A DNA stretch of 64,000 bases from Glomus cerebriforme (taxonomy: Eukaryota > Glomeromycota > Glomeromycetes > Glomerales > Glomeraceae), in the NCBI GenBank assembly GCA_003550305.1, contig QKYT01000161.1, forward strand, positions 89,958-153,957, read 5' to 3'. This document shows, piece after piece, positions 12,381-61,371 of the stretch. The position numbers and the translations under genes are program-made. Numbering within the stretch: the stretch's first letter is position 1; each line of letters begins with the position of its first letter. The notes below the pieces were generated by a model. It searched no databases. It saw only the letters and a program-made list of their open reading frames with translations, and had not been told where the DNA came from.

Positions 12381-12447
12381 ATTAATAATATTATAGATAG
12401 TAAGTAAGATTAAATAAAAAACACTTATGATAGCCTATGTAATTCAA

Positions 12448-13290: not shown

Positions 13291-13294
13291 TAAC

Positions 13295-22599: not shown

Positions 22600-24445
22600 A
22601 TTATTTCAACTGAATTTTATTTATTGAATAACATATATCATTTTTGAACAATTAATTTGTATAATCTGTATTAATTATTTATTTCATATGTATTTATTTG
22701 ATTTATGTACAAATATTATTAGATATTAGTTAAATAAATGTTAGAATAATTATTTATTGGTTGTTACATTTAAGATTTTAAAAATGACAAAGTTCCTTAA
22801 TTTTAGGTAAAATCTTAATTAGATATTTTTTTTTGATTAGTGTTGTTAAGATCAAATCACACTATCGATGGGTTCAGTCTAGTTCTATTAGAGGTTTTCA
22901 AGTTATGAGTTGCGGCGGACCAGTTCGGTTCGACTTAGGTTGATGGATCGAGTCGATACTGACTCCTTACCAAGCCGGACCGTTAACAATAACGTGGTTT
23001 TATCTGATGAAGAATATCCAGCTTGTAGTTTGCTATTTTTTATTAAAATTTGTAGAATTATTTATTATTTATTACATTAATTATTGAAATTATTATTTAA
23101 AAATTTGTTACTTATCGAATTACTCGAATTATTCATTATCGCGGATTGTCAAAATAAAAATTCATGTGCATTATTCCTTGATTTTCAATTTATTGTGAGT
23201 TAACAATTCTCTATATATTTGTCAATATTATATAATTATTTAAACTTATATATAAATTAAAGCATGTCTGATATATTTTAATAACATACAGTGCGCGATT
23301 TTTCCATCGTAACCAAGAAAATTACATGATAATTTACATCGAAATAGGAAAGATCCCTTCGCGTTTCTTTTTTTGGGGCACAACTTTCCTACATGCTAAT
23401 CAAAAAATACGCATTCAACCCTTAGAATACTTGGTAAAGATGAAACGTGGAAGTGAAAGGTGACGAAAAATATCGGGCGATTTTCTTTCGAGGCGGTCCT
23501 ACCGCGCCATCCAATTTATATTCAGTATAAACAGTATCAACTGAAGAAAAATTCATGAATTTTTCTTAAACAATTGTAATCTCAGTTTATTAATTGCCTT
23601 TTAAACACTTAAATATTTAAAAATTAAGATGATTGACCAGTTTTTTTAAATAAAAAAAATCTGAAAGTGTAGAAGAATGTATTCATATCGTAATCTCACG
23701 TAATTTTTATTTTTAAAATTTAACAAATCAAATGTTTTAATCCTATGTAATATCAGAAGAGTTAGCGACGATAAAATAAATTCTAATATTTGTTTATTTT
23801 ATTAATTTTCTTAAAACAGTCACAATGTAACAAAATGATGATATTAATATAAAAGTAAAGCTTCAGTTTTTACCATTATATTCAATAAACAAGTATTTTG
23901 AGAATAAAGAACATTGAGGACAGTTATTGTTTATAGGCTTTGACAATTAGTTTATTCCCCGATTTTTCTCGTCACATAATATTAAACTATTTATCTATTA
24001 AAAAAAAAAAAAAAAAGCAAAAGGTGCGCGTTCTCACGCCAGCCATTTTCGTAAAGTTTCTAATATTATTAACAATTTATGGTTGTCGTTGCCTCATCAC
24101 TTTTAATTAACATAACATTACTCCAATAATCACTTTATATGAAAAAAAAAATTGGAGCTATACGTACTGTACTTTATATGATTTAAGCGCATTTGAATTT
24201 AACGATTCAATTTAAATCACGAAATGATCATCAAAAATAACTTACCGAAATTGACTAATTTTTTTTTTTGGACAATGCCACATTATTATTTTGGTTTAGT
24301 GTGACACTTTAGATATAAAAATGAGATTCAAATGTCAATCGTATCACATACTCCTTGTACAACATTCAGAACAACGGGGTATTAAAGGCGGCGATTTAAA
24401 GTTTTTTTTTTCTTTTTTAGAATTTACGATTCATATTTAAAAAAA
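22600..24445. other. Intergenic region with two GC-richer islands
   Basis: No gene is seen. GC-richer stretches at 22860-22990 (GTTCGGTTCG-type words) and 23330-23530 contrast with the AT-rich surroundings and look like mobile-element debris. Homopolymer A runs occur near 24000. Confidence 0.5.
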
Positions 24446-26729
24446 ATGTCTTCTAACTTTGATATGATAATTATTCAAATAAAAGATCAACCATTACGAA
24501 TATTAGTTCGTCTGAAACTTAATGATAATTTATCAATAATCCGTAAAGAACTCGAAATGAATAATTTTATTGACGATACTTTATTATTTTCAAAAAAATA
24601 TTCTCAAAGTAATAATAATAATGAAAGTTATGAATTAATTAATATAGTACATGAAAATGAAGAAAATATTTTATTGATTGATATTGTAGAAAAATTTGAC
24701 ACTTATTATATTTTATATTTGGTAAATAGTATAGAATCTAATTGGAGATTTTTGATCGATAAACTTAAATTAGAATATGGTCGTATTATAACACCTGATG
24801 GAATTAGGGTAGCTAATAAAAAAGCTTTTATAATTAAGGATTGTGAAATGACTGAAATTGGTTCTGAAGGATTTCAAAATGGTCTTGATTCAAATGAAGA
24901 TGGGATTATGGAAACAGAATTATTTTTTACTGAGGATATACATTTTTCAAATTTTGGATTATCAATTAGATCAAAAAATAATAATTCTATCGATCATCCA
25001 AGTTATTATTCTACAGAGACTAGTAAAATATCTTTAAATTTTAACAAATATTTAGAACTGACTCCAGAATTTATTTATATGGTTAAAGATGCTATCAAAT
25101 CTAAACATTCTAAAAAAGAATTTGAAAAAATTAATGAAGAATTTGGTCAAATCATTTCAGATGAGGTTATTTTAGGTGGAAGATCCGATTTTCCTTCTAT
25201 TACAGAAAATAAGAGTTGTAAATTAATTGAAGGTCAAAATCCTGATAATTTTGAAGACGTTGACGAAAAATTATGGGTTACATCTTTAAAAGGTTTTAAG
25301 AATTTGGATTGTATAAAATTTAAAAATCCGGTCAATATTTTTCAATTCTTACCAAGTGATTTATGTAAAGATTGCTTTATATCTATTTCAAATCCTTCAA
25401 AATTTATTCCCATCAATAATTCCTTGACTAATACTACATTTACCGATAATTATAATGATAATAGTGTCACCTTTATCAAAAATAATAATTTAGGGCCATC
25501 AGAATTGGTAAATTTTATCGTAGTTAATCGCTTTGTTAAATTTATTAATATGAATGAATTATCAGCAATAACTGATATTGATGGAGGTCATTTTGGTACT
25601 ATTTCGAAAGCTATTTGGAAAACAACAAATGATTTTGTAATTTGTAAAAGATTGAAAAATATTCAATCGATTTGTTATAAACAAAAAGAAGCTTTTTTGC
25701 ATGAATTATCTATGCATAAAAGATTGGATTATTGTTCAAGAATTATTCGTATTTTAGGCATAAGTTTTGGTAAGCTTTTTACATATATATATATTTTTTT
25801 AATTAAGTTAAACAATTTTTTTATATTTACTTAAATATATATATTTTTTTAAATAGATGAATATAAACAAGAATATTTGCTTATGATGGAATATGCTGAT
25901 GGTGGAGATTTACGTAAATATCTTCAAGAAAAGTTTACTACATTAACATGGGATGATAAATTCAAATTAGCATATCAAATTACTGAAGGAATAAAATATC
26001 TACATGGAGAAAACATCATTCACCGAGATTTACATTCAAAAAATATAGTAATACATCGAGGAGAAGCCAAAATTATTGATCTTGGGATTGCAAAAAGTAT
26101 AGAAACTGAAACAAATCTTCATCTAGGTATATTTGGAATGATTGCATATATTGATCCTAAAATTTTAGCGGACCCTTCATATAATTATAAACATGATAAA
26201 AGATCTGATGTTTATAGTTTAGGTGTACTAATGTGGGAATTATCAAGTGGATACCCTCCTTTTATTATTGAAAATAATAATACTTTAGGAATTCAGTTAA
26301 TAAATGGGCGTAGAGAAGAACCAATTCCTAATACACCTAAAGAATACTTGGAATTATATAAATTATGTTGGAGCGGTGAGCCTGATTTAAGACCAACTAT
26401 TAATGAAGTATTTATTAAATTAGGAAAAATGTTAGGTATTCAAGATGTTAGCAATTATAATGATGATGATATACAAGGTAATTAATTAATTAAATATATT
26501 TATGTAAAAATAATAACGAAAAAATCTTTTGAATTTTTTTTTTTTCTAGATTTCAAAAGCGAACAACATGATGATAATCAATCTTTTGTAAATAATGATA
26601 CAGGTAAATATTAAATATATTAATATCGACGTTTTACAAATCTTTTTATCTGATTATATTTTTTTTTTTATCGTAGGCGAAATGGGTCAAGATTCAAAAA
26701 TGAACGAATTAAGTCTTGATCCGACCTAA
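24446..26729 (+). CDS. Truncated MACPF-like module fused to a TKL protein kinase
   Basis: Exons 24446-25769, 25857-26477, 26550-26603 and 26677-26729 give 683 residues in frame. The N-terminus has the family leader (LKLNDNLSIIRKELE), the block LEYGRIITPDGIR and the signature FGQIISDEVILGGRSDF. The module stops right after NPVNIFQFLPSDL, so the family C-terminal domain is missing. A polar linker leads at LGPSE to the kinase: GGHFGTI, a Lys in VICKRL, HRDLHSKN (HRD at 497-499), DLG (516-518), and a YSLGVLMWELSSG block. All catalytic residues are present. The paralogue at 40122-43404 has the same kinase, the same exon sizes at the 3' end and the complete MACPF-like part. The short tail exons are acidic and polar. 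Confidence 0.82.
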
Positions 26730-33210: not shown

Positions 33211-36200
33211 TCATATATTTTCATTAAAATTATCTTTAGTTAAAATATATCCCATTAAATCTAAAGGTAGTCCAACTCCCTCTTTATTATCAATCCTTAA
33301 ACTTTTATAATCAGAACATAAAACGCAAATATGTAAGTTTATATTAATAGCTGGTCCAAGCTTTGAAGTACTATTAAAATTAAGTTGAGATGCATTGGAT
33401 ATTTTAACGTTAATGGATTTGTCCTTCCATTCAACTAAATTAATAATATTATCAGGCTCACAATTTGTTAACGGATAATATGCATGAACCGAAATAATAT
33501 ATCCTTCAGATAATGAACAAGGAGTTTCAATAGGATAGTATAATTGATCAGGCTGTAATGTAATTGATTTTATAAAAGATTTAACCTGAACATTTCGATT
33601 ATTTGGACTAAAAACTGATAATTTAGAGGGAATTCCGATAACCATCCATATTACATAACATTTAGTCACATCAATACTTGCCGCTTCTAATTTTTCTAAT
33701 TTTTTAATTATCGCAAAAAATCCACTAAAATCGTACAATCCAAAATTAACATAAATTTCTTCTGATTTTAAATGATTTTTTGAAATAATTGATCCAAATA
33801 CTTCATAATCTTCAACTTCTAAAGATGATTCTAAAATAATATGTTTATAATGCTCAACGTTATTATTATTTAAATCTTTCAAATCAGTAATTCCTGTCAT
33901 TATAATTTTAAAATTATTTTCTAACATATTATCTATTTTTCTTTGTTGTTCCTCTTTGAGAATTTTGTAAAGAGGAATTATATTATCAAATTCAATAGTT
34001 TCCAGGTTATCATTCGTATCTTGAATCCAATTAGGTAAATCATTTTTTTTGATATTTTTTCCTTTTTGTGTTAAAAGATATGAAATATTTAAACTATCTA
34101 AATGTGGTTTTAATGAATCAAATATTGGTGATTCTAAATTAATTTTATCAAATGTATTATATGAAGAGGAATTTGATAAAATATTTTTAAAAGAACTTCC
34201 CAAGATAATTCTTTGTGGAAATAAATGACCATATTCATTAAATATATCTTGTAAAGCTTTTAATGGCTTCATACTTTCAAGTGCTTTTTCTATGGAATGT
34301 TCAAATTCTTTTGTAGGTTTTATAATATCTTCATTTAAGAGAATTTCATATCGTTCAAATTTGACTAGAATATGATTATAATCTCCATAATTTTTAATAT
34401 CATTTTTAATAAATGGAAAAGAGCATAAATTTTTAATTGAAAAAATGTTGTTGGAAATTAACATAGCTTCTAATTTTGTTGATGACCTGATCATTGCTAA
34501 GCTAGATTTATCACTAAAATTAATTTTAGGGGTTTCAATAAAATTAACGGCAATTTTCTTGCTAATTTCTATTTCATGATTTTGATTAATTATGAATCCC
34601 TTAAAAAGATGGAAATCTATGGCCCAGCTTAAAAGATTATTATATGCCGCATCTCCAATCCAATCTTCTAATCTTAACTTCTCTTTAAAATTGATAATTC
34701 CGGGTAGTCTTTTATTTAAAGTTTCAGGATCATATATTGATGATATACTACGTCGTAATTTAGAAGTAGAAATAAGATTATCATAAGAAATTATATCAAT
34801 TGTTTTATTTTGGTACAAATTATTTATCCATTTGATTGATTTTTCATGAATATTTAGATTTTCATCATCAAAATTTTTCATTTGATACAAATTGTCCATC
34901 CAATTGATTAACTCTTCATAAGTATTTAGCTTTTTCCCGTCCAATGTTTTCATTTCTGGTAAAAGATTCAAACAGAATAAATCATCAAATTGAATTTCTA
35001 TAGAATATTTAACTGAATTATATGCACAGAACAGATGAAATTTTAAAATTTCAATTTGCGTTTGAGTAACTGAACTAAATTTTTTAATAAATAATTTACT
35101 GCCAACTAAAACTTTTCTTGCAAAAAAATGTCCATACAATTCATGTAAGTCTTCATCATTCTCCATGTATTGTGAAAAAGATTCCAATGAATCACCTTTA
35201 TAGGTGATTTCAGCAATTGGAAAATTAACGCACACATCAGATGGTTGTAATGTATTATTAATATCATCTTTGTTAGAATAAAAGTTGAACAAATTTTCTG
35301 AAGAATCGAAATCATTTATATTGGTATATACTATAGGTTGTCCATCACATAAGTCAATATTTAATTCGCCATTCTCCGTAAAAATAGCTTGTTTACCTGG
35401 CTGTATGTTGCATCTATCCAAGAATAAACCATGGTTCAATTTCAACTGATGAATCACTTGATTATTGGTTGCATCGGTTATCCTTTCAATAATTTTCGTA
35501 AGTAATACAGTACTATTTAATTGATTTAACGAACCTAATAAATTAATAAAAATGATTAGTTTAGTTATTAATTATGAAATTTAATAAATATACCACGGTT
35601 TTCTAATTAACGCCTGTAAGTTTTTTTTTCACGGTGAAATGAGTTTAGCTTATAATTAGAAATTCCATGATATAAATCAGTTATTCCACGGATCATCCTC
35701 AATAAATGGATTCCCGTGAAATAACTATTACTTATTTATTAATTACTACCTTTTATACCAATTAGGGAAGTCGAAGTTATATCTGTTTAATATAAAATTT
35801 ATTAGTAAAATAAATTTATATAAATAAATATATTAAATTTACTAACTTTTTAGAATTTCCCGTGTAGTTTTATCAATACGATAAGCACAATAGGATTCAA
35901 AATTTATTTTAATAAGTGTCGGAACTTCTAAATTTAAATGAAGTTCTACTTCCTTAGCCAAATTATTTTCTGTATTTGATGTAATTTTACTTGCTGATTT
36001 TACTGATTCAGTTACTTTCATATCTTTCATATAACTAGTAATATTAGCATGTAACTTATCCCATACTTTTAATTTGTAATATTTCTGACATGTGGTCTTC
36101 AAGTGATTCAGTAGTATAGCTCTTGACTTTTCTCTTCGTTTTTTATTGATTCTAATTGCTTTTTGGTCACCGCCATTATGAATATTTATCGGGGGATTGT

Positions 36201-38781
36201 CTACATAAATGACACCTCTGCATGATTCGACTATTTTAGCAATTATTTCATTTTCCTTACATAATTCTTTTTTATCTCTTTCATATTCGTATTTATTTTC
36301 AAAGTTACCAAATTTAGTTCTCACAATAGTAGTATATTCAACAATACCGCTTTCAAGAATGGCTTTTCCGAATACTTTAAATGTTTCTAATTCTTCTGAT
36401 GTAAATCTTTTATCAACCACAAATAAAACTTGACTTATCCCCTCTGGAATCGAATAGATTACTTCTCCAATTTTACTATATAAAAGTTTCTTTTTAGTTA
36501 AATCAACTCTAACATCAATCACACAAAATCTCATTCCTTTCCATTCGAAATATTTTTTCCAGAAATCTCTTGTATTGCTGACTGAGTCTTCATTTTCTTC
36601 GAAATCATAAGTATTACTTAATACATTGACAAGTGTGGATTTACCACCACCAGTGAGACCAACTATTAATAAATTCCTGATTTTATTTCTTTCTAATGTA
36701 ATTCTCTCATTAAAATTTAGTGGCAGACTTACAAGGAGTTTAGCTTGTTTTATAATTTTATTCCACGTTCCTAATTTGTTTCGATGTACTTTTTCCAAAT
36801 GGCCTAGTAGCATGTTTCTTAACTGATCTCTTCTTTTTTCATTAATTCTAATTTTTTCTCGATTATCGTGGATATTTATTGGGGGAATGTCTACGTAAAT
36901 GATACATTTACATGATTCAACTATTTTAGAAGTTGCTTCATTTTCTTTGCACAAATCTTCTTTATCCTTTTTACATTTGTGTTTATCTTTAAAGTCACGG
37001 AATTTAGTTCTTACAATAGTAATAGTGTAATTTATATTACCACTTTCAGAAATGGCGTTTTTGAATAACTGAAACATTTCTATTTCTTCTGTGGTAAATT
37101 TTCTGTCAATCACAAATAAAACTTGGATTATCCCTTCTGGAATCATATTGATTATTTCTGCCATTTTATACAAAACTTCCTTTTTAGCTATTCTGGTATC
37201 AATCACACAATATTCTGTCCCCTTCCATTCAAAATGCTTTTTCTGAAAATTTCTAGTATTGCTAACTGACTCTTCACTTTCTTTGAAATCATATGTATCA
37301 CTTAATATATTGGCTAGTGTGGACTTACCAACACCAGTGCGACCAACTATTAATAAATTCTTAACGTAAGTATTACTTAACATAGTGACTGGTGTGGATT
37401 TAGATGACTTAATGGATGTAGCACTACCCTCAATTTTTTCAAGATCTATAGAATATGATAAATTTAATACTCTACTGGAATATATTTGACCATCATCATA
37501 TGAAATTGAAATATTTGGTATCTCTTTGTCAGCTTCTTTAAACATAGCTTTAATTTCTTTTCCCTTATATCCAAATTTTTCTTTTTCTTGATAATCTTCA
37601 TCTTTAATAGAATGATGCCAAAAATAGAGTATATCAAATAATTCACTTGCTGTTGGTCTTTTATTTGGATTAGCATCCATACATTTATGAGCCAATTCCC
37701 TATAAATTTCAGGAGTTCCTTTTCCAAATTCTGGTCTTAATCCCTTACATATTTCCATTGCTAAAAATTGATCATATTCTCTTTTAATAAAAGGTGGTTT
37801 TCCAGATGATAATTCAGTCATAATTACGCCAAAACCATAAATATCAGAGAATAATGTATATGGATTTCCACTCAAAACTTCTGAATCGACATATGGCAAT
37901 ATTCCATATACTATATTATCTGATTTTTGCTTATTTATTGGTTCAGATAACCCAAAATCTGAAATGTAAATTCCATCATAAGTTTGTAATATATTTCCAC
38001 TATGAATGTCTTTATGTAAGTATCCTGATGCATGTAAACCTTTAAGGTCCTTTAATATATCATATAAATATTTCATTTTATCATTCCATAAAATGGTGTT
38101 AAAATTATATGAAAGAACACTCCTTAAATTTCCCTGATCCGCAAATTGTATAATCATCGCGATTTTTTTAGTTTCTGGATCTTTAGTTATTCCATAAAAT
38201 CCTAAAGAATCACTTTGTAAACTATACAAACTCCAATGTGCTTTAAACTATTATTCAAATCGGACAATAAAATAAAATTATTCTAATTGAATTAAAAATA
38301 ATCAGTAATAAAAATACATGTAAATTATATATACCTCATCTAAATAATCAGTTATATTATGTGATCCAATAAGCATTTTCAAAGCAACTTTCATAGGTTT
38401 TGGTCCTTTCTTTTTCCAAATTCCTTGATCTTGCCTATAATAAAGTGCTTTACCATCAATCCATGTTGCAGAATATACGTTGGAAAATCCACCTTTACCA
38501 ATTTGTTTTATTTCCTTAAATCTATCAAACGGAATCCATTCAAGAAATAATGGATAGTATTTGCCCTCATCATAATATGTCTTTTTTGTATTATAAATCG
38601 TATCCTTGATAAATTCATCAACATCATGATTTTCACTGGTCCATCCTTCTATTATGTGACAAGGAACACATTCTTTGCACCATAATTTGTTGGGTGGATT
38701 ATAACAATTTTCATGATTGATGTTTACTAAATTATCAGAAATATTTAATTTATTAAATACAGATCCTACTTGAAGTTCCAT
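33211..38781 (-). CDS. TKL kinase / AIG1-like GTPase x2 / MACPF-like fusion protein (left copy)
   Basis: Exons 38781-38335, 38247-35847, 35782-35750 and 35534-33211 join in frame to 1,734 residues. The N-terminus has a Cys cluster (WCKECVPC), WTSEN and FDRF, then a kinase with GKGGFSNVY, VALK, HKD at 227-229 and DFG at 246-248, so it is probably active. Two P-loop domains follow: GRTGVGKS (451-458) and GLTGGGKS (679-686), each with an EWKG..CVIDxR strand and an RTKF motif, like AIG1/GIMAP GTPases. The last exon encodes the MACPF-like module with YGHFFARKVLVGS and YGHLFPQRIILGS motifs. No in-frame ATG precedes the conserved start of that exon, so it is best read as part of this gene. It mirrors the gene at 45206-50851. 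A split into two genes remains possible. Confidence 0.72.
35679..35731. mobile_element. Foldback element inside intron 3 of the left copy
   Basis: The arms AGTTATTCCACGG and CCGTGAAATAACT-ATTAC match the hairpin at 6383-6422. It lies in intron 3 (35749-35535), which is about 215 nt, against 64-87 nt for the other introns of this gene. Confidence 0.55.
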
Positions 38782-40121: not shown

Positions 40122-43100
40122 TTATCTTATACTTAATTTGTCCAAGTTTGAATCTTTATGTTCCATTATATCGTCTATGATAAAAAAATGTAATCAGATA
40201 CAAAGACTTATAGACATTAACATCAATATATCGAGTATTTACCTGTATTATTATTTACCGAAGATTGATTATCATTACTTTGTTCACTATTAGAATCTAT
40301 AAAAAGATCAATACATTTATTCATTATTATTGTTACATATACATATAAAATAAATAAATAAATGATTTACCTTGTACATCATCATTATTGCTATTATTGC
40401 TAACATCTTGAATACCTAATATTTTTCCTAATTCAACAAAAACTTTATTAATAGATGGTCTTGAATCAGGCTCACCATGCCAACATAATTTATATAATTT
40501 CAAGTATTCTTTAGGTGTATTAGGAATTGGTTTTTCTCTATGACCATTCACTAAACGAACTGTTAAAACGGAATCATTTGTTTCACTAATAAAAGGAGGG
40601 TGTCCACTGGATAACTCCCACATTAGCACACCCAAACTATAAATATCAGATCTTTTATCGTGTTTATAATTATATGAAGGGTCTGCTAAAACTTTAGGAT
40701 CAATATATGCAATCATTCCAAATACACCTAGATGAAGATTGGTTTCATCTTCTATACTTTTTGCAATCCCAAGATCAATAATTTTGGCTTCTCCTTGATG
40801 TATTACTATATTTTTAGAATGTAAATCTCGATGAAGGATATCTTCTCCATGCATATATTTTATTCCTTCAGCAATTTGATATGCTAATTTTAATTTATCA
40901 TCCCATGTTAATGTAGAAATTTTTTTTTGAAGATATCTGCGTAAATCTCCACCATCAGCATATTCCATTATAAGCAAATATTCTTGTGTATTTATATCTG
41001 TTTAAAAATATATTTCTTTTAGTTAACTTTTGAATTATAAAAGAAATTAATTTTAAAAAATTAATTTTATACATACCAAAACTTATACCTAATATACGTA
41101 TAATTCTTGCGCAATAATCTAACTTTTTATGCATCATTAATTCATGTAAAAATGCTTTATTTTTTTTATAACAAATTGATTGAGTATTTTTCAATATTTT
41201 ATAAACTACATAATTACTTGTTCTTTCCCAAAAAGCTTTCGAAATTGTACCAAAATGACCACTACCAATATTCTTTTTTTCTGATAATTCATTCATATCA
41301 ATAAATTTAACCAATTGATGTTCTATAACAAACTTTATCGATTCTGATGGCCCTAAATTTTTATTTTGTTTATTCTTTGCGTGATAACTATATTCAGAAA
41401 AATATATAAAAAGAAATGTTTATTGATTTATCAAATAACAAATTTTTTTTTTTAAAAAAAACAATAAAAAATAGTTAAATACCCTAAGTAAGAGTCAAAT
41501 AATATGCAAAAATGATTATCTTCTTTTGATAATTTTTTAGCATTGTTCTTACAAATAAGACAGGTGTTATTACACTTACAATTAACATATTCTATATTGA
41601 TTTGCTTACTGGTTTGATTCAAAAAAATTGGAGTATAGTTAAAATCTTTTGATAAATATAGACTGGCATATTTTGGATTTAAATTTAAACTACCAGATTG
41701 TGAATTAAAATTTATAAATGGTTTCTTCTGTTTGTTAAATTCAAAGGGAAGTGATGTATAAGCATTAGAGGTAGGCTTATTTAAAATAATAATAAATGTA
41801 CAAAAAGTAAATTTAGGTAAATTAAAATAACAATTTTTCTTTACGCAATAAGAATATATATCAATCTTAAATTTATCATGTTTATCTTTACAAAAATTAT
41901 GTCCAATTACAAGGGAATTATTTGAAGAATCATAATTGCTTAATACAGGAATTCCAAAGAAAGGGTTATTATTTTCCATCATTGAGTCAAGATTATATTC
42001 CAACGGAATGCTATAAAACATATATGGATTTTGTGAATCATATACATCCTTTTTTAAATGAACACTAATATCTGAAAAAATATGATTAAAATTCGTATCA
42101 TAACCAATAACCATTATTCCAACTTTCAATTTACATATACGTTCTTGAAATTGTTTTTGAATACCATGAATTATAATACTTGGTCTTATATTTGAAGAAT
42201 TGAGAATTTGACAGTTAAAAAAAATCTCTTTTGAATTTTCATCAGTATCAATAACTGCTGCAAAAATGTCACAATCTGCATTTTTATTTAAAATAATGTC
42301 TAAGATATTCTGTGGTACATTTCTTAATACAAAAGTTCCATACATTCCAGGTTTATATAAATAATAATCATGATTTTCAGTACTTGTATAAAGGATCCTT
42401 TTTCCAATAGATTCAAAAATTTCTTTATATAAATCATCAGGTAAAAGTTTAAAAATACTAATAGGATTTTTAAATTCTATACAATCCCAATTTTGATAAT
42501 CTCTTAAAGATTCAATCCAAGAATTTTCATCGAAATCTTTATCAATAGAATATATGTAATTGAAACTATGAACTTCTGATTTTCTTTTTGACTCAGTAGA
42601 AGAACTTTCTTTAAAATTATCTACAGAACTTTTGGTTAATATTTTAACATCTTTAAAATAAATTCTTCCTCCGAAAATAACTTCAGTTGGAATGAATTGA
42701 CCATATTTCTCAGTAATTTTCTTAAAGTTTTTAGAATCTTTGGATTTTATGGCATCGATTATTTCATTTTTAAAGGTTTTAGTAAATTTCAAATTTTCTT
42801 TACTAAATTTCAATGATGCTCTACCAAATTCTACATATTGATAAATAGAATTAATTTTATCACTAAAATTTTCATCTTTCAATAGTATTCTAAAATCTAT
42901 AAAATTCTGTACGTCATTAATATCAGTACTAAAAAATAAATTTCTTTTTTTTATCCAATCCTCTTTTGATTCAAATTCAAGTTGACCTTTTTTGTATTTC
43001 TCATTACCAGTTAAATTAAATTCACAATCTTGCATTATAAATGCTCTTTTATTGGCTTTTTTAATTCCATCAAAACTCATAGTACATCCATAATCTAATT

Positions 43101-43404
43101 TACAATTGTTATTAAAAAACTTCCAAGATAGTCTTGAATTTTTTATTAAATATAAAAATTTATTTTCTGAATTATCAGATATTTCTATAATTTCACTTAA
43201 AAATATATCATCTTCATCTTCACGTTCTATTTCTTTAAACATATTTTTATCTTTTATTGAGAATAATATCATATCATTGATGGTATTATTCTTTTCAAGT
43301 TCTTTACGAATATCTGATAAATTACTATCCAGATTTAATTTTTTCATTTTTGATGACGATTCGCCTGCAATTTTAATGAATACTTTGACTTTATTGGAAG
43401 ACAT
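40122..43404 (-). CDS. Full-length MACPF-like protein fused to a TKL protein kinase
   Basis: Exons 43404-41483, 41387-41077, 40997-40371, 40296-40243 and 40174-40122 join in frame to 988 residues. Residues 1-90 are the beta-grasp-like leader (NLSDIRKELE). LDYGCTMSFDGIKKA follows, and the signature KYGQFIPTEVIFGGRIYF is at 233-250. The W..SL and NPISIFKLLPDDL blocks, the C-terminal domain (DCDIFAAVID) and a Cys cluster (CKCNNTCLIC) complete the module by about residue 635. After LGPSE the kinase has GSGHFGTI, a Lys in VVYKIL, HRD at 800-802, DLG at 819-821 and IYSLGVLMWELSSG, so it appears catalytically complete. The last three introns match those of the gene at 24446 exactly in position and phase. 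It lies at the centre of the large palindrome formed by the 33211 and 45206 genes. Confidence 0.83.
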
Positions 43405-45205: not shown

Positions 45206-48200
45206 ATGAGTATAAAAAATGAAGTCCAAATAGAAACCGAATTAAATGAATTAAATACCTTCGATAAATTAGTAAAATTCAATCATGGAAATTGTTATAA
45301 TCCACCTGATAAACTATGGTGTAAACAATGTGTTCCTTGCTACATAATAGAAGGATGGACTAGTGGAAATCATGAAATTGATAAATTCATCAAGAATACG
45401 ATTTACAATGCAAAAAAAATATATTACGATAGTATCAATGATGATGAAGATTACCCATTATTTCTCGAATGGGTTCCGTTTGATAGATTTAAAGATACGA
45501 AACGAATTGCTGAAGGCGGATTCTCCAAAGTATATTCTGCAACGTGGATTGATGGTAAAGCAAAATATATTAGACAAGATGATGGAAGGTGGGAAAAAAA
45601 AGAACCTGAACCTATTAAAGTTGCTTTGAAAAGGTTAAATGGTTCACAGAATTTGTCGCCTGAACATTTAAATGAGGTAATATTTACATTTTTTATTTTA
45701 ATCGATTTTCAATGATAATTAAATTCAATTTTAATTTAATATAGCTTAAATTACACTACAAATTAAATAACTCAAAAAGTAATTCTTTAAAATTTTACGG
45801 AATGACTAGAGATCCAACAACTAAAGAATTTATGATAATTATGCAATTTGCGGATCAGGGAAATTTAAGGAGTGTTCTTTTAAATAATTTTAACAACATT
45901 TTATGGAATGATAAAATTGGATTCTTATGTAATTTATTAACGGATCTTAAAGGTTTACATGAATTAGGATATTTTCATAAAGATTTTCATAGTGGAAATA
46001 TATTACTAATTCAGGATTCTTTCTTTAATAATAATGTGACCTATCTTTCAGATTTTGGACTATGTAGTCCATCAAATGAACAAAAATCAGATGATATAGT
46101 TTATGGTGTGTTGCCATATATTGCTCCAGAAGTTTTGAATAAAGAACCATATACTTCATCTTCTGATATTTATAGTCTTGGTGTAATTATGGCTGAATTA
46201 TCATCTGGAAAACCACCTTTCTATGATAGAAAACATAAATTAAGTTTAGCATTAGATATATGTAATGGATTAAGACCAGAATTTGGAAAAGGGACTCCTG
46301 AAATTTATAAGAAATTAGCTCATAGATGTATGAGTGCCAACCCAAACCAAAGACCAACAGCTAATGAATTATATTATATATTTAATTTTTGGTATTGTTC
46401 TATAGAGGATGAAGTTTATGAAGATCATCAAGCAGAAAAATTTGGATATAAGGGAAAAGAAATTAAAGCTATGTTTGAAGAAGCTGATAAAGAAATACCA
46501 AATATTTCACTTTCATATGAAAAAGTTCCTGGTGCTATATATACCAGTAGAGTATTTACATTTAAAATTTTATCCAAACCCATTAATTCATCAATTATTA
46601 CTTCAACATATCTTAATGATAAAGAAATCGAAATTGAAAGTAGTGCTAATTTCATTGATTTATCTATTTCCACACCACCAACACCAGGTACTATGTTAAG
46701 TAATACTTACGTTAAGAATTTATTGATAGTTGGTCACATTGGTGTTGGTAAGTCCACACTAGCCAATATGTTAAGTGATACCTATGATTTCAAAGAAAGT
46801 AAAGAGCCAGTTAGTAATACTAGAAATTTTCAGAAAAAGTATTTTGAATGGAAGGGGACAAAATATTGTGTGATTGATACCAGAATAGCTAGAAAGGAAG
46901 TTTTGTATAAAATGCCAGAAATAATCAATCTGATGCCAGAAGGGATAATCCGAGTTTTATTTGTAATTGACAGAAAATTTACCACAGAAGAAATAGAAAT
47001 ATTTGAGTTATTCAAAAAAGCCATTTCTAAAAGTGGTAATATAAATTATACTATTACTATTGTAAGAACTAAATTTCATAACTTTAAGGATAAACACAAA
47101 TGTAAAAAAGATAAAGAAGATTTGTGCAAAGAAAATGAAGCAATTTCTAAAATAGTTGAATCATGTAAAAGTATCATTTATGTAGACATTCCCCCAAAAA
47201 ATATCCGCGATGATCTAAAAAGAGATCAGTTAAGAAACATGTTACTAGGCCATTTGGAAAAAATACATCAAAACAAATTAGGGACGTGGAATAAAATTAT
47301 AAAACAAGCTAAACGCCTTGTAAGTCCGTCACTAAATTTTAATGAGAGAATTACACCGGAAAGAAATAAAATTGGGAATTTATTAATAATTGGCCGCACT
47401 GGTAGTGGTAAATCTACACTTGCCAATGTATTAAGTAATACTTATGATCTCGAAGAAAATGAAGACTTAGGTAGCAATACAAGAGATTTCTGGAAAAAAA
47501 ATTTCGAATGGAAAGGAATGAGATTTTGTGTGATTGATGTTAGAGTTGATTTAACTAAAAAGAAAATTTTATATAATAAAATAGGAGAAGTAATCTATTC
47601 GATTCCAGAGGGAATAAGTCAAGTTTTATTTGTGGTTGACAAAAGATTTACATCAGAAGAATTAGAAACATTTAAAGTATTTGGAAAAGCTATTCTTGAA
47701 AGTGGTATTGTTAAATATACTACTATTGTGAGAACCAAATTTGTTAATTTTGAAAATAAATATGAATGTGAAAAAGATAAAAAAGAATTATGTAAGGAAA
47801 ACGAAATAATTGCTAAAATAGTTGAATTATGCAGAGGTGTCATTTATGTAGATAATCTCCCGATAAATATTCATAATGGCGGTGACCAAAAAGCAATTAG
47901 AATCAATAGAAAACGAAGAGAAAAGTCGAGAGCTATACTACTGAACTACTTGAAGAGTGCATGTCGGGAATATTACAAATTAAAAGTATGGGATAGGTTA
48001 CATGCTAAAATCACTAGTTATATGAAAGAAACTGAATCAGTGAAATCAACAAGTAAAATTATATCAAATATAGAAAATAATGTGGCTAAGGAAGTGGAAC
48101 GTAATTTAAATTTAGAAGTTCCGACACTTTTTAAAATAAATTTTGATGCCTATTGTGCTTATCAAAATACGCTGGAAATCCTAAAAAGTTAGTAAATTTA

Positions 48201-50851
48201 ATATCAGATTAATTAATATTAAAATTATTAGTATTATTTTTTTTTTTTTTACTGATAAATTATTATATTAATCAGATATAACTTCAAGTGATATAGAGGA
48301 AAATAATGAAGGTAATAAATATTAAATTTTATTATTATTCAATTATTTGGAGAAAGTTGAGTTTCTTAGTATGCAGTAACTGCATAGTAACCAGTAGATT
48401 GCAATTAATTTACTATCAGATATGGTATCAACTATATAGTTAATATGCCATTGCTTTGTAGTTACTGCGTATTAAGGAAATTATGTTTCTGCAAAAGTTA
48501 TTGATATTTTATTAATTTTATTAATTCTATTATGTTCGTTAGATTCTCAATTAACTAATTCTAATTCTACATCAATAATGAAGATTATGAAAAGGATGAA
48601 GTCTGATCAACAAGTGATTCGACAGTTGAAATTGAATCATGGTTTATTAATGGATGGTTGTAACATACAGCCGAGTAAACAAGCTATTTTTATTGATGAT
48701 GGTGAATTAAATGTAAGCTTATATGATGGACAACCTATAGTATATTTTAATATAAATGATCCTGATTCTTTGGAAAATTTGATCAGTTTTGATTCTAACG
48801 AAGATAATTTCAATAATAATACATTACAACCATCTGATATATGCATTAATTTTCCAATTGCTGAAATCACTTATAAAGGAAATTTGCAGAAATCATTTTT
48901 AAAATGCAAGGAAAATGATACAAACTTACTTGAAATGTATGGACATTTTTTCGCAAGAAAAGTTTTAGTTGGTAGTAAATTATTTATTAAAGAAATTAGT
49001 TCATTTACTCAAACTCAAATTGAAATTTTAAAATTTTATTTGATGTGTGCATATAATTCTGTAAAATATTCTATAGAAATTCAATTTAATAGTTTATTCA
49101 CCCTAAATCTTTTACCAGAAATGAAAACATTGGATGGGGAAAAGCTAAATACTTATGAAGAGTTGATCAACTGGATGAATGATTTATATCAATTGAAAAC
49201 ATTTGATGCAAATTTAATCAACCGAATGAATAATTTAAATAATTTGTACCAAATGAAAACAATTGATATAATTTCTTACGATAATCTCGTTTCTACTTCT
49301 CAATTGCGAGACAGTATATCAACGATATATGATCCTGATATTTCAAATGAAAGACAACCCGGAATCATCAATTTTAAAGAGAAGTTAAGATTAGAAGATT
49401 GGATTGGAGATGCGGCATATAATAATCTCTTAAGTTGGGTCATAGATTTTCATCTTATTCAAGGATTCATAATTAATCAAAATCATGAACTAGAAATTAG
49501 CAAGAAAATTGCCGTTCATTTTATTGAAACTCCTAAAGTTAATTTTAGTGATAAATCTAGTTTAGTAATGATCAGGCCGTCAACGAAATTAGAAGCTATG
49601 TTAATTTCCAACAATATTTTTTCAATCAAAAATTTATTCTCTTTTCCATTCATTAAAAATGACGTTGAAAGTTATGGGGATTATAATCATATTCTAGTTA
49701 AACTTGAACGACATGAAATTATCTTAAATGAAGATATTATAAAACCTACAAAAGAGTTTGAACATTCCATAGAAAAAGCACTTGATAGTATAAAGCCACT
49801 TAAAGCTTTACAAGATGTATTTAATGAATATGGTCATTTATTTCCACAAAGAATCATTTTGGGAAGCTCTTTTAAAAATATTTTATCAAATTCTTCTTCA
49901 TATAATAAATTTGATAAAATTAATTTAGAATCACCAATATTTGATTCATTAAAACCGCATTTAGATAGTTTAAATATTTCATGTCTATTAACACAAAAAG
50001 GAAAAAATATTGAAAAAAATGATTTACCTAATTGGATTAAAGATGCGAATGATAATCTGGAGACTATTGAATTTGATAATATCATTCCTCTCTATAAAAT
50101 TCTCAAAGAGGAACAACAAAGGAAAATAGATAATATGTTAGAAAATGATTTTAAGATTATAATGACAGGAATTACTGATTTAAAAGATTTAAATAATAAT
50201 AACGTTGAACATTATAAACATATTAATTTAGAATTTTCATTGGAAGATGAAGATTATGAAGTATTTGGATCAATTATTTCAAAAAATAATTTAAAATCAG
50301 AAGAAATTTATGTTAATTTTGGATTGTACGATTTTAATGGATTTTTTGCGATAATTAAAAAATTAGAAGAATTAGAATCAGCAAGTATTGATATAACTAA
50401 ATGTTATGTATTATGGATGATTATCGGAATTCCCTCGAAATTATCAGTTTTTAGTCCAAATAATCGAAATGTTCAGGTTAAATCTTTTGCAAAAACAATT
50501 ACATTACAACCTAATCAATTATACTATCCTATCGAAACTCCTTGTTCATTATCTGAAGGATATATTATTTCGGTTCATGCATATTATCCGTTAACAAATT
50601 GTGAGCCTGATAATATTGTTAAGTTAGCTGGATGGAAAGACAAATTCATTAATGTTAAAATAGTTAATGCATCTCAACTTAATTTTAATAGTACTTCAGA
50701 GCTTAGACCAGCTATTAATATAAACTTACATATTTGTGTTTTATGTTCTGATTATAAAAGCTTAAGGATTGGTAATAAAGAAGGAGTTGAACTACCTTTA
50801 GATTTAATGGGATATATTTTAACTAAAGAGAATTTTGATGAAAATATTTAA
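45206..50851 (+). CDS. TKL kinase / AIG1-like GTPase x2 / MACPF-like fusion protein (right copy)
   Basis: Exons 45206-45676, 45745-48187, 48276-48311 and 48543-50851 join in frame to 1,752 residues. Residues 30-45 are a Cys cluster (C-x8-C-x2-C-x2-C). The kinase has EGGFSKVY near 103-110, Lys142 in VALK, HKD at 235-237 and DFG at 260-262. P-loops are at 487-494 (GHIGVGKS) and 707-714 (GRTGSGKS), each in a domain with EWKG, CVIDxR and VRTKF strands, like AIG1/GIMAP GTPases but lacking the usual DxxG Gly. The MACPF-like module from about 996 has YGHFFARKVLVGS (from 1116) and YGHLFPQRIILGS (from 1413), then the W..L/EFDNIIPLYKIL and DYEVFGSII blocks shared with the stand-alone family. No signal peptide is visible. 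It is the mirror copy of 33211-38781. Confidence 0.74.
48362..48480. mobile_element. MITE in intron 3 of the right copy
   Basis: The ends TTTCTTAGTATGCAGTAACT and the inverse of TTTCCTTAATACGCAGTAACT form imperfect inverted repeats of about 20 bp. It accounts for the length of this intron (231 nt). The mirror gene has a different element in the same intron. Confidence 0.65.
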
Positions 50852-54157: not shown

Positions 54158-56132
54158 TTAATATGATATTAAACATTCAACATTTTCGCCTTTTGCTATT
54201 TTTGATGTTTTGTTCTTACAAAAAGTACAAGTTTTCTTACAAATGCAATCAACATATTTTACCTTAATTTGATTAATTGTTTGTTTCAAAAAGAAAGGTT
54301 TATAATTTTCTTTTGATAAACAACAACTAATATATTTTGGATCCAAGGAATGTTTTTTAAGATTTTTAAGATCAATGAACGGAGTGTTTTTCAATCCATT
54401 AAACCCAAAAGAAAGTGATGCATAATTATTAGAAGTAAGACCATTTAAAGCAATGAGTATAAAAGTAAATCTTGGTAAATTAACAATACATCTTTTTTCT
54501 AAACAATAAGAAAACACGTCTATTTTAGAGTTATAATTATCTTTATGAAAATTATGTCCAATGATGAGAGAATCATTTGAAGAATCCAAATTTTCTAATA
54601 CAGGTATTCCAAAGATAGGAGTATTATTTGTCATTAAGTCAAGGTCGTCTTTTAATGGTATACTATAAAAATCACATTGATTGTACGGATCATAAATATA
54701 TTTTATTGATGTAACTCTAACATCTGAAGTAAATTTGAAATTTATATCGTAACCAATAACCATAATTCTAATTTTTAATTTATATTCACATTTTTTAAAT
54801 TTTTTTTGAATACCATGAATTATAATTTTAGGTTTCTCATTTTGTTTTCTAAGAATTTGACAATTAAAGAAATCATTTTTTGATTCATCTGTATCAATAA
54901 CTGTTGCAAAAATATCACAATCAGCCTCTTTATTTTGAAGTATTTCTGAAACTTCGTCTGATATATCAACAATTTTGTACTTTCCAGGTTCATTTAAAAT
55001 ATATTCATAATTTTCAATACTTGTATGAAGAATTTTTTTTCCCAATAGATCTAAAGGATGCTTTACGTAAATCATCAGGTAAAAGTTGAAATATACTAAT
55101 AGGATTTTTAAATTCTATACTATCCCAATTTTGATAATCTTTTAAAGATTCAATCCAAGCTTTATCATCAAAATCTTTACCTTCAGGATGGGCTCCTCCA
55201 ATTAATCTCATACGATCAGAACTACAAAAACTTGATTCCTTTTTTGAATCACTAAAATTAATTCCTAATTTTACATGTGAATTTATATTTACAGAACCTT
55301 CTTTAGATTCATCAGCTTTATTTACTACTGAGATTGTATCATCTTTAAAACTAACTCTTCCTCCTAAAATAATTTCAGTAGGAATAAATCGACCATATTC
55401 CTGAATGATTTTAACGAAATTTCTAGAATTTTTAGAATCTATGGCATTAAGCAAGTCATTTTTAAATTCATCAGTTAATTCTAAATTTTCCTTATTAAAT
55501 TTCAATGAAGCTTTACCAATTTCTGTATATTGATATTTTGAATTAATTTCTTCATCAAAATTTTTAATTTGTGAAGTTTCAATTGAAAATCCTAATTCCG
55601 CAAAATCTTGTACATTAATATCATTACTATAAAATAAATTTGTTTTTGCCATCCATTCTAATTTTGATCTAAATTCAAGTCTATCTTTTTTATATTTTTC
55701 AGCATGATATAAATTAAATTTACAATATTTCATTTCAAAAGCTCTTTTACTCGCTTTTTTATTACCATCAACACTTAAAGTACGACCATAATCTAATTTA
55801 CATTCCTTATTTAAATAATCCCAATAACATAAATCTGAATTACTTTTAAATAAGTATAAAAATTTACCATCTGAATTTTCGAATAATAATTCTTTTAAAA
55901 TCATTTTTTCTTCATCTTCACGATCTGTTACTGAATATTCATTAACTAATTTTTTTGAAAATAATAATATATTAATATCATTAATATTACTCTTTTCAAG
56001 TTCTTTACGAATTTCATATAAATTTTTATTGATATCTAATTTTTTCGTTTTTGGATTTGATGGTTTTATTGAATCACCTATTTTTTCTACAATTTTAATA
56101 TATACAGTATTTATTTCATTGGAAGTCGACAT
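54158..56132 (-). pseudogene. MACPF-like protein with a one-base frameshift
   Basis: The start at 56132 gives the family leader (NLYEIRKELE), LDYGRTLSVDG, the signature EYGRFIPTEIILGGRVSF and the W..SL/NPISIFQLLPDDLR blocks. The frame breaks just after SIGKK. It resumes one base over at HTSIENYEYIL and runs through DCDIFATVID to the Cys cluster (CICKKTCTFC) and the stop at 54158. The break lies in a run of eight T on the plus strand (55033-55040), where the intact paralogue at 59377 has one base less at the equivalent place. Both halves are otherwise well conserved, so this is a recent loss, an assembly error in a homopolymer, or a slippage site. It is the left arm of the second palindrome. 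Confidence 0.75.
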
Positions 56133-59100
56133 TTTGAAAAAAAAATTTTTTTTGAATTTTTGAAATTTAAAATTTTGCAAAAAATTTTAGCCTTTTTATT
56201 TTTTTTTCGCGTATAATTTGCAAAAAAATTTGGAAATAAGAAAATGGATTACTTGATTAATCTGATTGATCTACATTTTAGGATTAGTATTATTGTTATT
56301 ATGTCTTAAGGCATTACAAAAATGGATCGATAGTTTAGCCCAATTGTCAACTTGCCAAAATTGAACTCAGCCTTATAACGATAAAAGAATTCTAATGCAA
56401 ATATCTTGAATGTCCGAATGCACGAATTTGGGGTTTTGGGGTTGAATTTAAATTTATTATGCATGTGAAAGAAAGTGTTTATCCAACTAGAAAACAATCA
56501 ATAAAAGTTAATTATGTTATACGAAATAAAATAAATATTTTTTTCCTAATAATCGAGGTCATATGGTCTCACAAATATAGAGAATTAAGAAATAACCCTA
56601 GTCATAGCCCGTCCAACACTAGGAGTTGAAATTCCTTTCCCTTAATACTATCAAGTTACCTGATATAGTTAGTTTGCATGCATGCATTATCGGAGTTCTA
56701 AAACTCCGTAAGTTGTCCTGTGAAAAGTAATTTGGGACGTGTTTTGATATCTTTCACGTTTATTTTTTTAAGTGTATCATTATTTCATGGAATTTATACG
56801 AAAATCATCTTTACACTTTGCCGATCATGTTACTGTACAGTACATATTTACAAGATTTTTACCCATTTTTCCATTATTTATCCATATTTTCTAGGATAAA
56901 ATTTTTATAGGATTATTATTTATAGAATTAATGGAGACATCTTTATTGTTAAAAAGCTTAAAAAGCTTATGTTTTAAACATCATAAAAATCTTCGAAAAT
57001 CTAAACAATCTTACTGCGGTATATTTACACGTGATTAAAACAGTCAGCTGAAAGTTTTCTGAAAAGTAACATTATCATTTTTCTATTTCATTGATACATC
57101 ATTTATTGGATGGTCAGTCAACTAAATAAAATATATGTGGTTACTTTGTTTTTTTTTTAATTTTAAATCAATTATTTACGCGAATTAATACTAATTTTAA
57201 AAATGGCAGCTCATTAGTTGCAAATAATTAAATAATTTATTAACCATTTTTATCTTTATACGTGTAAAATGGTTAAAGGTTTTGAATTATTTAGTCGATT
57301 AATCAAAGATAATAATTCAAATGGATTAATAATAATCATAATGGAATTGGAATGAAAGTTGATAAACAAAAAAGAATATTATTAAAACGATTCATTGGTA
57401 TAGAATTATGCTGGAGATCGGAATCACCTCTATATATTTTAATTAATAGAAAGGAAATAATATATTGTCAAATACTCTAATTTATGAATATTGGAATATT
57501 GAATGAAAAAATGGCTTTATTTATATCATTTTAAGAATATTAAGAGTATTATAAGTCTTGTCTATTACTTATTATTTGTGAAATAATTTATATATTTTGC
57601 ATGACGTGTTGTTATACATTATGACTCATGCTAGCAAAAAAAAAAAGAATTAAAATTATTCCTTGATTGCTAACAAATGAATAATGATAAAATTAAATTT
57701 CATTTATGAATGTTAGCAGCAAAATCATAGATGAAATTAATTAACGTCAGTTATGATATAATCTGATAATATACGACAGTTATTATTGGCTATTCAATTG
57801 TCAGTATAGTTTTAGTTTTTTAGAATGTTGTCATTTGATCAATTTTCAAATTATATTTGTAGTTATAACCCTGTATATTTGCATGACATATAAAATAAAT
57901 ATACTGTGAGTCTTGTGCAATGCGTAAAATATATATACCATGACTCATTGTTTTTTAAAAAAAAAACATAAAAAATAGAGAATTTGCATGACATAAAATA
58001 AATAATTATTATATGGAATTATATGGATATTGTACGTTCGCGACGTTAACCAATGTAAGAAAAATATGTGATTATGACCTTATATATACAGTAGATAGTT
58101 GCAACATGTGTCACATCGTTGTATTGTTCGACGCGTAAATATGAACTATGAGTAGTGCATATCGATGTCATGGTTCTTTACATAATCAATAGTAAAAATT
58201 TTAATATTGATGAATTATTCTCTTTTTCAGATACCATAGGTTTTTTTAATTTTTAATGATTATCAAACTCCTTCACACTCCTGCCAAATAACGTGTACTG
58301 TGATTCACCTGAAGTATTAAGGCGGGCAATTGTAAGAAGTTTTTATAAAAATAAGGATTTAAGAGTCGTGCATCAGATAGTAGTTTTGCACTTTTCATGA
58401 AACTTTTAGCTAGCTGGAACACGTTTGATCACGTGTAAATATACCGCAGTAAGTCTTTGTTTTAAAACGTGAAACTTAGACGTTTAGATTTTTAACTAAA
58501 ATATAAGAAGCTGTTTAACAATAAAAATGTTTCATTTGTAGATATGAAACATGATCGGCAAAAAAATGAAAATCAGATGGGAAATCAGATTACATTTATA
58601 GAAAAAAAAATCCCGGAATTGTATCAATTTTTTTTTTTTTTTTACAGAATAATGACGGAGTCCAGAACTCCAATTTAAAACAATGAAATACGAATGAATA
58701 CGACTAACTATATCAGTACGTAGCACGAAGTTCCACACTTGGTTTGTTATAATTGGAATGACAATATAAGGGAATTACAGCCCAGTATTCCACAATAGTG
58801 TTGGATTAACAGGATTAACATATAATAATTTTGGGGCAAAAATGACTTATATTAACTTGTACATAATGGTTTATTGTCCATTATGATTTACTAATATTCT
58901 TTGTTTTATTTTTGTTTTATTGTTTATAGTATAAACACAATTAATTTTTACTTTTAACAGTTAAACTTTAATTAATTAAAATGGATCCTTTAATAAAATA
59001 AAATTGTTACTTTACCTTAAATGTTTAACAAATGAATATATTTAAGTTGTGAATAATCACTTTCTTTTTATATAATTTATAAATGTAAACTAGTCTCAAA

Positions 59101-59376: not shown

Positions 59377-61371
59377 ATGTCTTCCAATAAAATCATTGTA
59401 TTTATTGAAATAGTAGAAATTATGGGTGATTCAATAAAAACATCGACACCAAAAATGAAAAAATTAAATCCTGATAAAAATTTATCCGAAATTCGTAAAG
59501 AACTTGAAAAGAAAAATATTAATGATATTAATATTTTATTATTTTCAAAAAAACCAAATATTACCAAAATTGCAGAAATAGATCGTGAAGATGAAGAAGA
59601 AATTTTTTTAAAAGAAATTTTATATGAAAATTCTGGAAGTAAATTTTTATTTTTATCAAAAAATGATTCAAATTTATGTTGGGATTATTTAAATAAAGAA
59701 TGTAAATTAGATTATGGTCGTACTTTAAGTGTTGATGGTATTAAAAAAGCGAGTAAAAGAGCTTTTGAAATGAAATATTGTAAATTTAATTTAACCGGTG
59801 CTGAAAAATATAAAAGAGATAAACTTGGATTTATATCAGAAGAGGATTGGATGAAGAAAACAAATTTATTTTTTGATATAAATATTAGTTCACAGAATTT
59901 TGCAGAATTGGGTTTATTAATTGAAAGTTCACAAAATGAAAATATTAAAAATGAAATTAATTCAATTTATGAATATACAGAAATTGGTAAAGCTTCATTG
60001 AAATTTAATCAAAGAAATTTAGAATTAACTGATGAATTTAAAAATGATGTGATTAATGCCATAAATTCTAAAGATCCTAAAAAATTCATTAAGATTACTG
60101 AAGAATATGGTCAATTTATTTCAACCGAAGTTATTTTAGGTGGAAGAGTTTATTTTAAAGATAGAAAAATCTCTTCAATAAATTGTGTGGATCATACTAA
60201 AGAAAATTCTGTTTCTACAAATATTGGCATTTCAAGAAATTCTTCAAAAACAAAAGCAGGTAGTAAATCTATTGATTCAAGAAAGAAATCAAATTTTTAT
60301 AGTTTTGATCATATGAGATTACTTGGAGGAACCCATCCTGATGGTAAAGATTTTGATGATAAAGCTTGGATTGAATCTTTAAAAAATTATCAAAATTGGG
60401 ATTGTATAGAACTTAAAAATCCTATTAGTATATTTCAACTTTTACCTGATGATTTACGTAAAGAATCCTTTAAATCTATTGGGAAGAAAATTCTTTATAC
60501 AAGTATTGAAGATTATAAATTTATTTTAAATGAAAGTGATAAACCAGAAGTTGTTGATTTACCATACAAAGTTTCAGAAATACTTCAAAATAAAGAGGCT
60601 GATTGTGATATTTTTGCAACAGTTATTGATACAGATGAATCAAAAAATGATTTCTTTAATTGTCAAATTCTTCATCCATCAAATGGAAAACCTAGTCTTA
60701 TAATTCATTGTATTCAACCCAAATTTAGAAAATGTGAATATAATTTAAAAATTAGAATAATGATCATTGGTTTTGATACAAATTTTAAACTTTCGGATAT
60801 TTGTGTTAAATCAATGAAATATATTTATGATTCAAAAATACCATGTGACTTTTATAGTATACCATTACAAGTAGATCTTGGCTTGACAAATAATATTCCT
60901 TTCTTTGGTATTCCTGTATTAGAAAATTTGAATTCTCTAAATAAGTCCCTTATCATTGGACATAATTTTCGAAATATTTCATCTGATAATGAACTTAAAA
61001 TTGACGTGTTTTCTTATAATTTAAAGGAAAGACGGTTTGTTGAATTACCAAAATTTACTTTTTGTACACTCATTATTTTAAATAATCTTACTTCTAATGA
61101 TCATGAATTACTTCCTTTTAAGTTTAGTATTTTCAAAAAATCTCCATTCATTGACCTTAAGAAAAAATTTACTTCATATTTAAGTTTAAAATTTATTAGT
61201 TTATATTTATCTGAAGAAAATTATAAACCTTTCTTTTTAAAACAAAATATTAAACAAATTAGAATAAAATATGTTGATTGCAAGTGTGATAAAACTTGTA
61301 CTGTTTGTAAGAACAAAAAATTAAGAGTATCAAGAAGTGAAAATAATATTAAATGTATAATATATAAGTAA
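59377..61371 (+). CDS. MACPF-like protein, stand-alone
   Basis: A single exon of 664 residues; I chose the ATG at 59377 because MSSNK matches the paralogue start at 43404. Residues 1-95 are the beta-grasp-like leader (NLSEIRKELE, ILLFSKK). LDYGRTLSVDGIKKA spans about 111-125 and the signature EYGQFISTEVILGGRVYF about 243-260. A Ser/Lys-rich stretch, LLGGTHPDG, WIESLKNYQNWD and NPISIFQLLPDDLR follow. The C-terminal domain starts at DCDIFATVID, and a Cys cluster (CKCDKTCTVC) closes the protein. No signal peptide or clear membrane helix is visible. It is the intact right arm of the second palindrome, whose left arm holds the frameshifted copy. The function is unknown; membrane insertion is inferred from the MACPF-like core. 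Confidence 0.85.
   Translation: MSSNKIIVFIEIVEIMGDSIKTSTPKMKKLNPDKNLSEIRKELEKKNINDINILLFSKKPNITKIAEIDREDEEEIFLKEILYENSGSKFLFLSKNDSNLCWDYLNKECKLDYGRTLSVDGIKKASKRAFEMKYCKFNLTGAEKYKRDKLGFISEEDWMKKTNLFFDINISSQNFAELGLLIESSQNENIKNEINSIYEYTEIGKASLKFNQRNLELTDEFKNDVINAINSKDPKKFIKITEEYGQFISTEVILGGRVYFKDRKISSINCVDHTKENSVSTNIGISRNSSKTKAGSKSIDSRKKSNFYSFDHMRLLGGTHPDGKDFDDKAWIESLKNYQNWDCIELKNPISIFQLLPDDLRKESFKSIGKKILYTSIEDYKFILNESDKPEVVDLPYKVSEILQNKEADCDIFATVIDTDESKNDFFNCQILHPSNGKPSLIIHCIQPKFRKCEYNLKIRIMIIGFDTNFKLSDICVKSMKYIYDSKIPCDFYSIPLQVDLGLTNNIPFFGIPVLENLNSLNKSLIIGHNFRNISSDNELKIDVFSYNLKERRFVELPKFTFCTLIILNNLTSNDHELLPFKFSIFKKSPFIDLKKKFTSYLSLKFISLYLSEENYKPFFLKQNIKQIRIKYVDCKCDKTCTVCKNKKLRVSRSENNIKCIIYK

Follow-up and report, generated by a model that had tools for sequence, protein, structure and literature searches.

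A kinase–AIG1–MACPF fusion gene in the arbuscular mycorrhizal fungus Glomus cerebriforme and its MACPF_1-DUF7431 neighbours

Glomus cerebriforme is a fungus in the family Glomeraceae (Glomeromycota). The window considered here is a 64,000-nucleotide stretch of its assembly GCA_003550305.1 (contig QKYT01000161.1, positions 89,958 to 153,957 of the forward strand), and its central element, termed gene A, is a four-exon gene at 45206-50851 on the forward strand whose exons join in frame, across GT-AG introns, to give 1,752 residues and a stop. Exon 1 (45206-45676) encodes the N-terminus and the kinase N-lobe with its glycine loop and VALK lysine, and exon 2 (45745-48187) the kinase C-lobe (HKDFHSGN, DFG, APE) followed by two AIG1 domains; exon 3 (48276-48311) comprises only 36 bases between intron 2 (48188-48275) and intron 3 (48312-48542), and exon 4 (48543-50851) encodes a MACPF-like module. 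An inverted paralogue, copy B (33211-38781, reverse strand), repeats this architecture in four exons (38781-38335, 38247-35847, 35782-35750 and 35534-33211) that form a single 1,734-residue frame, with exon number and phases as in gene A and intron 2 at an identical position and phase; the two proteins are 79% identical. Outside gaps, intron 2 (35846-35783 in copy B) is 90.6% alike between the copies, much as the coding exons are, and introns 1 and 3 are only 66% and 50% alike. A sequence-only reading of this DNA had proposed four frame-consistent exons and one fused gene rather than two, of which the first was confirmed by the in-frame join, the splice sites and copy B, and the second is supported. 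For the second, the module exon of copy B has no in-frame ATG at its start and must therefore be an internal exon, and the exon 3 product (ITSSDIEENNE) closely matches ITSIDLEENIE of the Rhizophagus clarus protein P0085, to which the start of exon 4 is also close. In five predicted proteins from other genomes (P0084, P0085, P0086, P0094 and P0095), the alignment begins at an AIG1 domain, crosses the junction unbroken and reaches the module's end. Since the inverted copy shares exons and phases and these five foreign proteins align in one piece, a chance product is excluded, and gene A is established at the sequence level, short of cDNA, as one gene encoding a single chain.

The kinase of gene A gives a Pfam match of 100.2 bits. 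Its catalytic motifs, which had been described as intact, can be read directly as VALK, HKD, SDFG and APE; copy B has DSE in place of APE. The further label of TKL kinase found no support in a comparison with solved structures, in which the closest kinases were MST2, ASK1 and PAK, which we take to be STE-type, and the sole TKL kinase (as we presume MAP3K9 to be) ranked 60th among the best 60 matches listed. Two PADLOC matches on exon 2 (mads_6 and PD-T4-6) were attributed to kinase similarity, and no defence assignment was made from them. AIG1 was found by Pfam in two stretches of exon 2 (60.4 bits for the whole protein against a cut-off of 27), with domain 1 at 46717-47289 and domain 2 at 47377-47838, both on the forward strand. 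The G1 P-loop GxxxxGKS is kept in each, as GHIGVGKS and GRTGSGKS, which bears out the tandem AIG1-type P-loop domains of the earlier reading. The ‘NTPase switch’ that it saw in them fares worse, because the G3 motif DxxG is missing from both domains in gene A, as it is in copy B, and reads DTRI in domain 1 and DVRV in domain 2.

The exon 4 product scores 27.3 bits against MACPF_1, for which the cut-off is 27.5 bits, and that of copy B scores 28.0. The structure predicted for the module contains a clear MACPF fold at module residues 288-534, closest to that of the pore former pleurotolysin B, so that the suspected MACPF-like module was recovered, core included, on comparison with known folds. 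Three parts can be delimited on the forward strand: an N-half (module residues 27-268, 48623-49348), which is possibly a second MACPF/CDC-like unit; the C-half with the predicted MACPF fold (49406-50146), which carries EYGHLFPQRIILG; and a tail, predicted to be beta-rich (50150-50848). Profile comparison of the halves as an internal repeat gave a probability of 36% over 35 columns, with a score of 33.3 where 30 column shuffles reached no more than 22.6, and 3% in a 3-row version; the repeat is suggestive only. The MACPF half matches proteins of the MACPF_1-DUF7431 type (96.6%); the tail gave no match to DUF7431 (0.5%) and is not called by that name. A beta-moment scan for membrane hairpins flagged mostly ordinary strands and was dropped.

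When the stretch from the second AIG1 domain to the junction was used as a query, 25 relatives were retrieved, of which 17 hold AIG1 and the module together, 14 of these with a kinase as well. One, P0094, is exactly kinase-AIG1-AIG1-module, and the domain order can thus be read in both window copies and in predicted proteins of the root symbiont Rhizophagus. The claim that the system is undescribed stands only in part: 14 of the 25 relatives already unite kinase, AIG1 and module in one predicted protein, yet their names are generic and no description was recognised. In the open-access literature, judged mostly from titles and the starts of abstracts, no description of kinase-AIG1-MACPF proteins or of the DUF7431 pairs discussed below was recognised. 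The fusion architecture is real, conserved and unnamed, and its gene neighbour is newly seen. A search with the module itself yielded 83 proteins, the best named matches being from Rhizophagus diaphanus, G. cerebriforme and R. irregularis; a kinase is present in at least 34 (31 kinase-module, two module-kinase and one kinase-module-kinase), a lower bound obtained by BLAST with the gene A kinase under length limits that excluded proteins of gene A size. About 25 genes of this genome contain the module. Among 14 frames scanned with Pfam, kinase and module share one uninterrupted frame at L013, L017 and L030, and Sel1 repeats accompany the module at L012, L013 and L028; among loci L009-L038 with 1.5 kb of flank, AIG1 precedes the module only in copies A and B. 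A 3,379-residue open frame at C260:79853-90000 (L025, L040) has Sel1 repeats before a module copy, in partly masked sequence that makes its length unreliable. Other partners are a large GTPase of the GBP type, fused to the module in P0053, and Argonaute, which in P0082 and P0083 is combined with the last part of the module.

A DxxG motif was found by script in at least one AIG1 domain of 22 of the 25 relatives; in P0086 and P0095 a DDIG displaced by one column was read by eye, and P0099 reads DTVK. In those with three AIG1 domains (the P0084-P0099 and P0107 set) the motif is in the middle domain alone in 11 of 15, the exceptions being P0085 (first), P0086 (first, the DDIG read by eye), P0107 (second and third) and P0099 (none); to judge from these motifs, a single working domain would seem to stand between two degenerate ones. 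In a tree of 68 AIG1 domains, domain 2 of A and B groups with the last pre-module AIG1 of P0084, P0085, P0086, P0094 and P0095 (support 99/98), which indicates that the domain-2 position is old, and domain 1 of A and B forms a separate long branch. Five R. irregularis proteins (P0100-P0104) have the order AIG1-kinase-AIG1. The two of these that were scanned, P0100 and P0102, have weak leucine-rich-repeat matches, under Pfam cut-offs, between the kinase and the last AIG1, in a layout like that of NOD-like receptors (NLRs).

Between A and B the ratio of non-synonymous to synonymous substitution rates (dN/dS, NG86) is 0.47 overall. By region, it amounts to 0.54 for N-terminus and kinase, 0.64 for the first AIG1 domain and 0.27 for the second, 0.43 for the module N-half and 0.16 for the MACPF half. 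A third copy of the module, paralogue C (14827-18317, reverse strand), is continued in the same open frame (15642-18317) by a zinc-ribbon-like stretch and a kinase start; the remainder of this kinase, at 14827-15534, is degenerate and reads, by eye, HCN for HRD and EFS for DFG. Upstream of it, in a copy C region spanning 14827-20128 on the reverse strand, lies a kinase-Sel1 gene; in-phase splicing of its last exon to the copy C module would be possible (donor 18353, acceptor ending 18269; phases by hand).

Head-to-head with gene A lies a MACPF_1-DUF7431 gene (41455-43404, reverse strand); a kinase (41419-40333) comes next on that strand. Genes of this type form a separate family, with open frames mostly near 670 residues, and at least four are found in the window (20638-22596, 41455-43404, 54161-56183 and 59377-61368), so that, with the module genes, two MACPF-type families are clustered with kinases in these 64 kb. 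The genome's 25 module genes were condensed by hand from 38 rows, with ten split rows merged and with the weak rows on C627 and C215 and a match on the DUF7431 gene at C260:111240 excluded; 39 DUF7431 genes were condensed from 43 rows, excluding four fragment rows. A DUF7431 gene is present within 10 kb on either side of 23 of the 25 module genes, where random placement would lead one to expect about 0.7% each, and the nearest is divergent in 14 of the 23. Within 12 kb upstream, 21 of the 25 have one, head-to-head in 17 of these (binomial p 0.0036 against equal chance). Gene A has in addition a second DUF7431 gene, downstream and convergent, which is closer to its module than the head-to-head one. 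DUF7431 and module are fused in P0008, P0013, P0025 and P0043, a common sign of proteins that work together. Elsewhere in the window, a MACPF_1-DUF7431-like frame recognised by eye (24386-26485, forward strand) runs into a kinase N-lobe with the C-lobe in the next frame, a frame at 3106-4179 (forward strand) has, by eye, a GATA-type zinc-finger-like end, and the stretch around 12440-13310 reads N.

Gene A most resembles unnamed proteins of R. irregularis and R. clarus (P0084, P0085, P0094 and others), in which a single chain combines the same module with a kinase and with two or three AIG1 domains. Unlike gene A, the Rhizophagus proteins mostly have three AIG1 domains, one of which retains DxxG at G3, and in many the module is preceded by a second kinase; no described function was found for them. 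Pleurotolysin B acts from outside the cell, together with pleurotolysin A. By comparison, the module of gene A is preceded by a kinase and AIG1 domains, no hydrophobic leader is apparent by eye where the chain begins, and there is a possible second MACPF/CDC-like half. As in MLKL and the NWD2/HET-S pairs, in which NWD2 adjoins het-S (PMC9815663), a sensor or kinase part is coupled to a membrane-active part, the membrane activity being putative in gene A. Unlike them, gene A has AIG1 in place of NACHT/NB-ARC and MACPF in place of HeLo/4HB. NB-ARC reached 17.6 bits in exon 2 against a cut-off of 23.5, and NACHT was not among the best 25 of 57 Pfam rows for that exon; nor were 4HB or HeLo, which were also absent from exons 1 and 4. 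The head-to-head DUF7431 gene recalls the paired layout of an NLR and its executor, with sensor role and membrane activity both putative. Gene A shares with AIG1/GIMAP proteins an AIG1 domain with its P-loop; in contrast to AIG1-Hint and GIMAP proteins it adds a kinase and a MACPF module, has lost G3, and has no Hint among the best 25 of 57 Pfam rows of exon 2. PMC8778642 reports a strong expansion of AIG1-Hint proteins in Glomeromycotina, the sole group in which it found MLKL-family homologues carrying Sel1 repeats; PMC12373286 records AIG1 with CARD and HINT from lancelets and a few fungi. A fungal Aig1 gene, whose identity with gene A is not implied, is one of the five genes that PMC7490403 lists as upregulated in each of the three hosts on co-inoculation with different R. 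irregularis isolates. Neither MACPF nor AIG1 occurs in the main text of three papers on fungal NLRs and cell death (PMC9815663, PMC12881547 and PMC10197012).

We tentatively favour, at somewhat short of an even chance, an intracellular sensor-executor in which the kinase and AIG1 pair would restrain the MACPF module until a signal released it onto the fungus’s own membranes, probably together with a DUF7431 partner. The AIG1 pair, with its P-loops but without the G3 glycine, may act as a nucleotide-bound dimerisation scaffold and not as a cycling GTPase, and the MACPF part might be freed through phosphorylation or oligomerisation. The module protein and the product of the adjacent MACPF_1-DUF7431 gene, as second component, could then assemble together. 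As in allorecognition or defence, the result would be damage to membranes, death of the cell or sealing of a compartment; the immune or cell-death role is one we infer. A wider version is rather unlikely: that arbuscular mycorrhizal fungi have a two-gene system for immunity or allorecognition, in which a tandem MACPF module gated by kinase, AIG1 or Sel1 would co-assemble with its head-to-head MACPF_1-DUF7431 partner on the fungus’s own membranes, as a MACPF counterpart of NLR-HeLo and gasdermin death, with the lone signalling-competent AIG1 between degenerate ones serving as assembly switch in most relatives. Several points weigh against the sensor-executor. Many MACPF proteins are non-lytic, and two membrane-inserting helix clusters cannot be assigned with confidence in the model, and pore formation is putative; the model’s predicted template modelling score (pTM) is just 0.43, and domain packing is not readable from it. 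The loss of G3 weakens a GTP-switch view of copy A, and constraint is uneven, with dN/dS reaching 1.12 between the second AIG1 domain and the module as well as the value noted for the first. As to the pairing, which was counted without regard to intervening genes, a DUF7431 gene also lies within 12 kb downstream of 12 of the 25 module genes (convergent in eight of the 12), tandem module genes on C920 have one common upstream partner, so that the 17 head-to-head cases represent 16 partner genes, and the upstream DUF7431 gene of copy B is on the same strand; moreover, as paralogues the module loci do not count as independent cases, so their arrangement may be a result of copying.

The strongest rival, a serious contender to which we nonetheless give less credence than to the sensor-executor, holds that the MACPF module never pierces membranes and instead serves for binding or as a scaffold in a large, rapidly changing family of signalling proteins, used to perceive the environment or in symbiosis. 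Its many partners (kinase, Sel1, AIG1, the GBP-type GTPase and, for the last part, Argonaute) would suit an interaction domain, and PMC8647823 and PMC6123716 describe an expansion of the kinase and Sel1 families of R. irregularis, which one of the two papers treats as accessory gene sets; the nearest fold is nevertheless a pore former, and module genes adjoin a second MACPF-type gene, which suits a two-component membrane assembly. That gene A is a decaying member of a repetitive family, without selected function, is improbable: several stops fall within the module at the loci behind L034-L035 and L038, matches L020, L027, L029 and L036 have one or two stops each (which may be introns instead), and the absent G3 motifs and the dN/dS of 1.12 point the same way, but A and B are both intact across 1,734-1,752 residues and constrained overall, above all in the MACPF half. 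Very improbable indeed are two neighbouring genes, the first with kinase and AIG1 and its end at 48192, the second with the module and its start near 48578, since the in-frame stop after the exon 2 donor in both copies, an intron 2 as similar as coding sequence beside an exon 3 diverged (53% alike) like intron 3, and the ATG near the start of exon 4 in gene A are outweighed by the ATG-less module exon of copy B, the junction continuous in other genomes with exon 3 matched in R. clarus, and the intron-free kinase-module fusions of the same genome.

Arbuscular mycorrhizal fungi grow as multinucleate networks. Different isolates come into contact and may fuse, and how the fungi discriminate self from non-self is, to our knowledge, an open question. 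A conserved, multi-copy and paired kinase/AIG1/MACPF family supplies named candidates, with which non-self recognition and cell death in these fungi become testable. If the sensor-executor reading is true, MACPF proteins would join the executors that act inside the cell that produces them.

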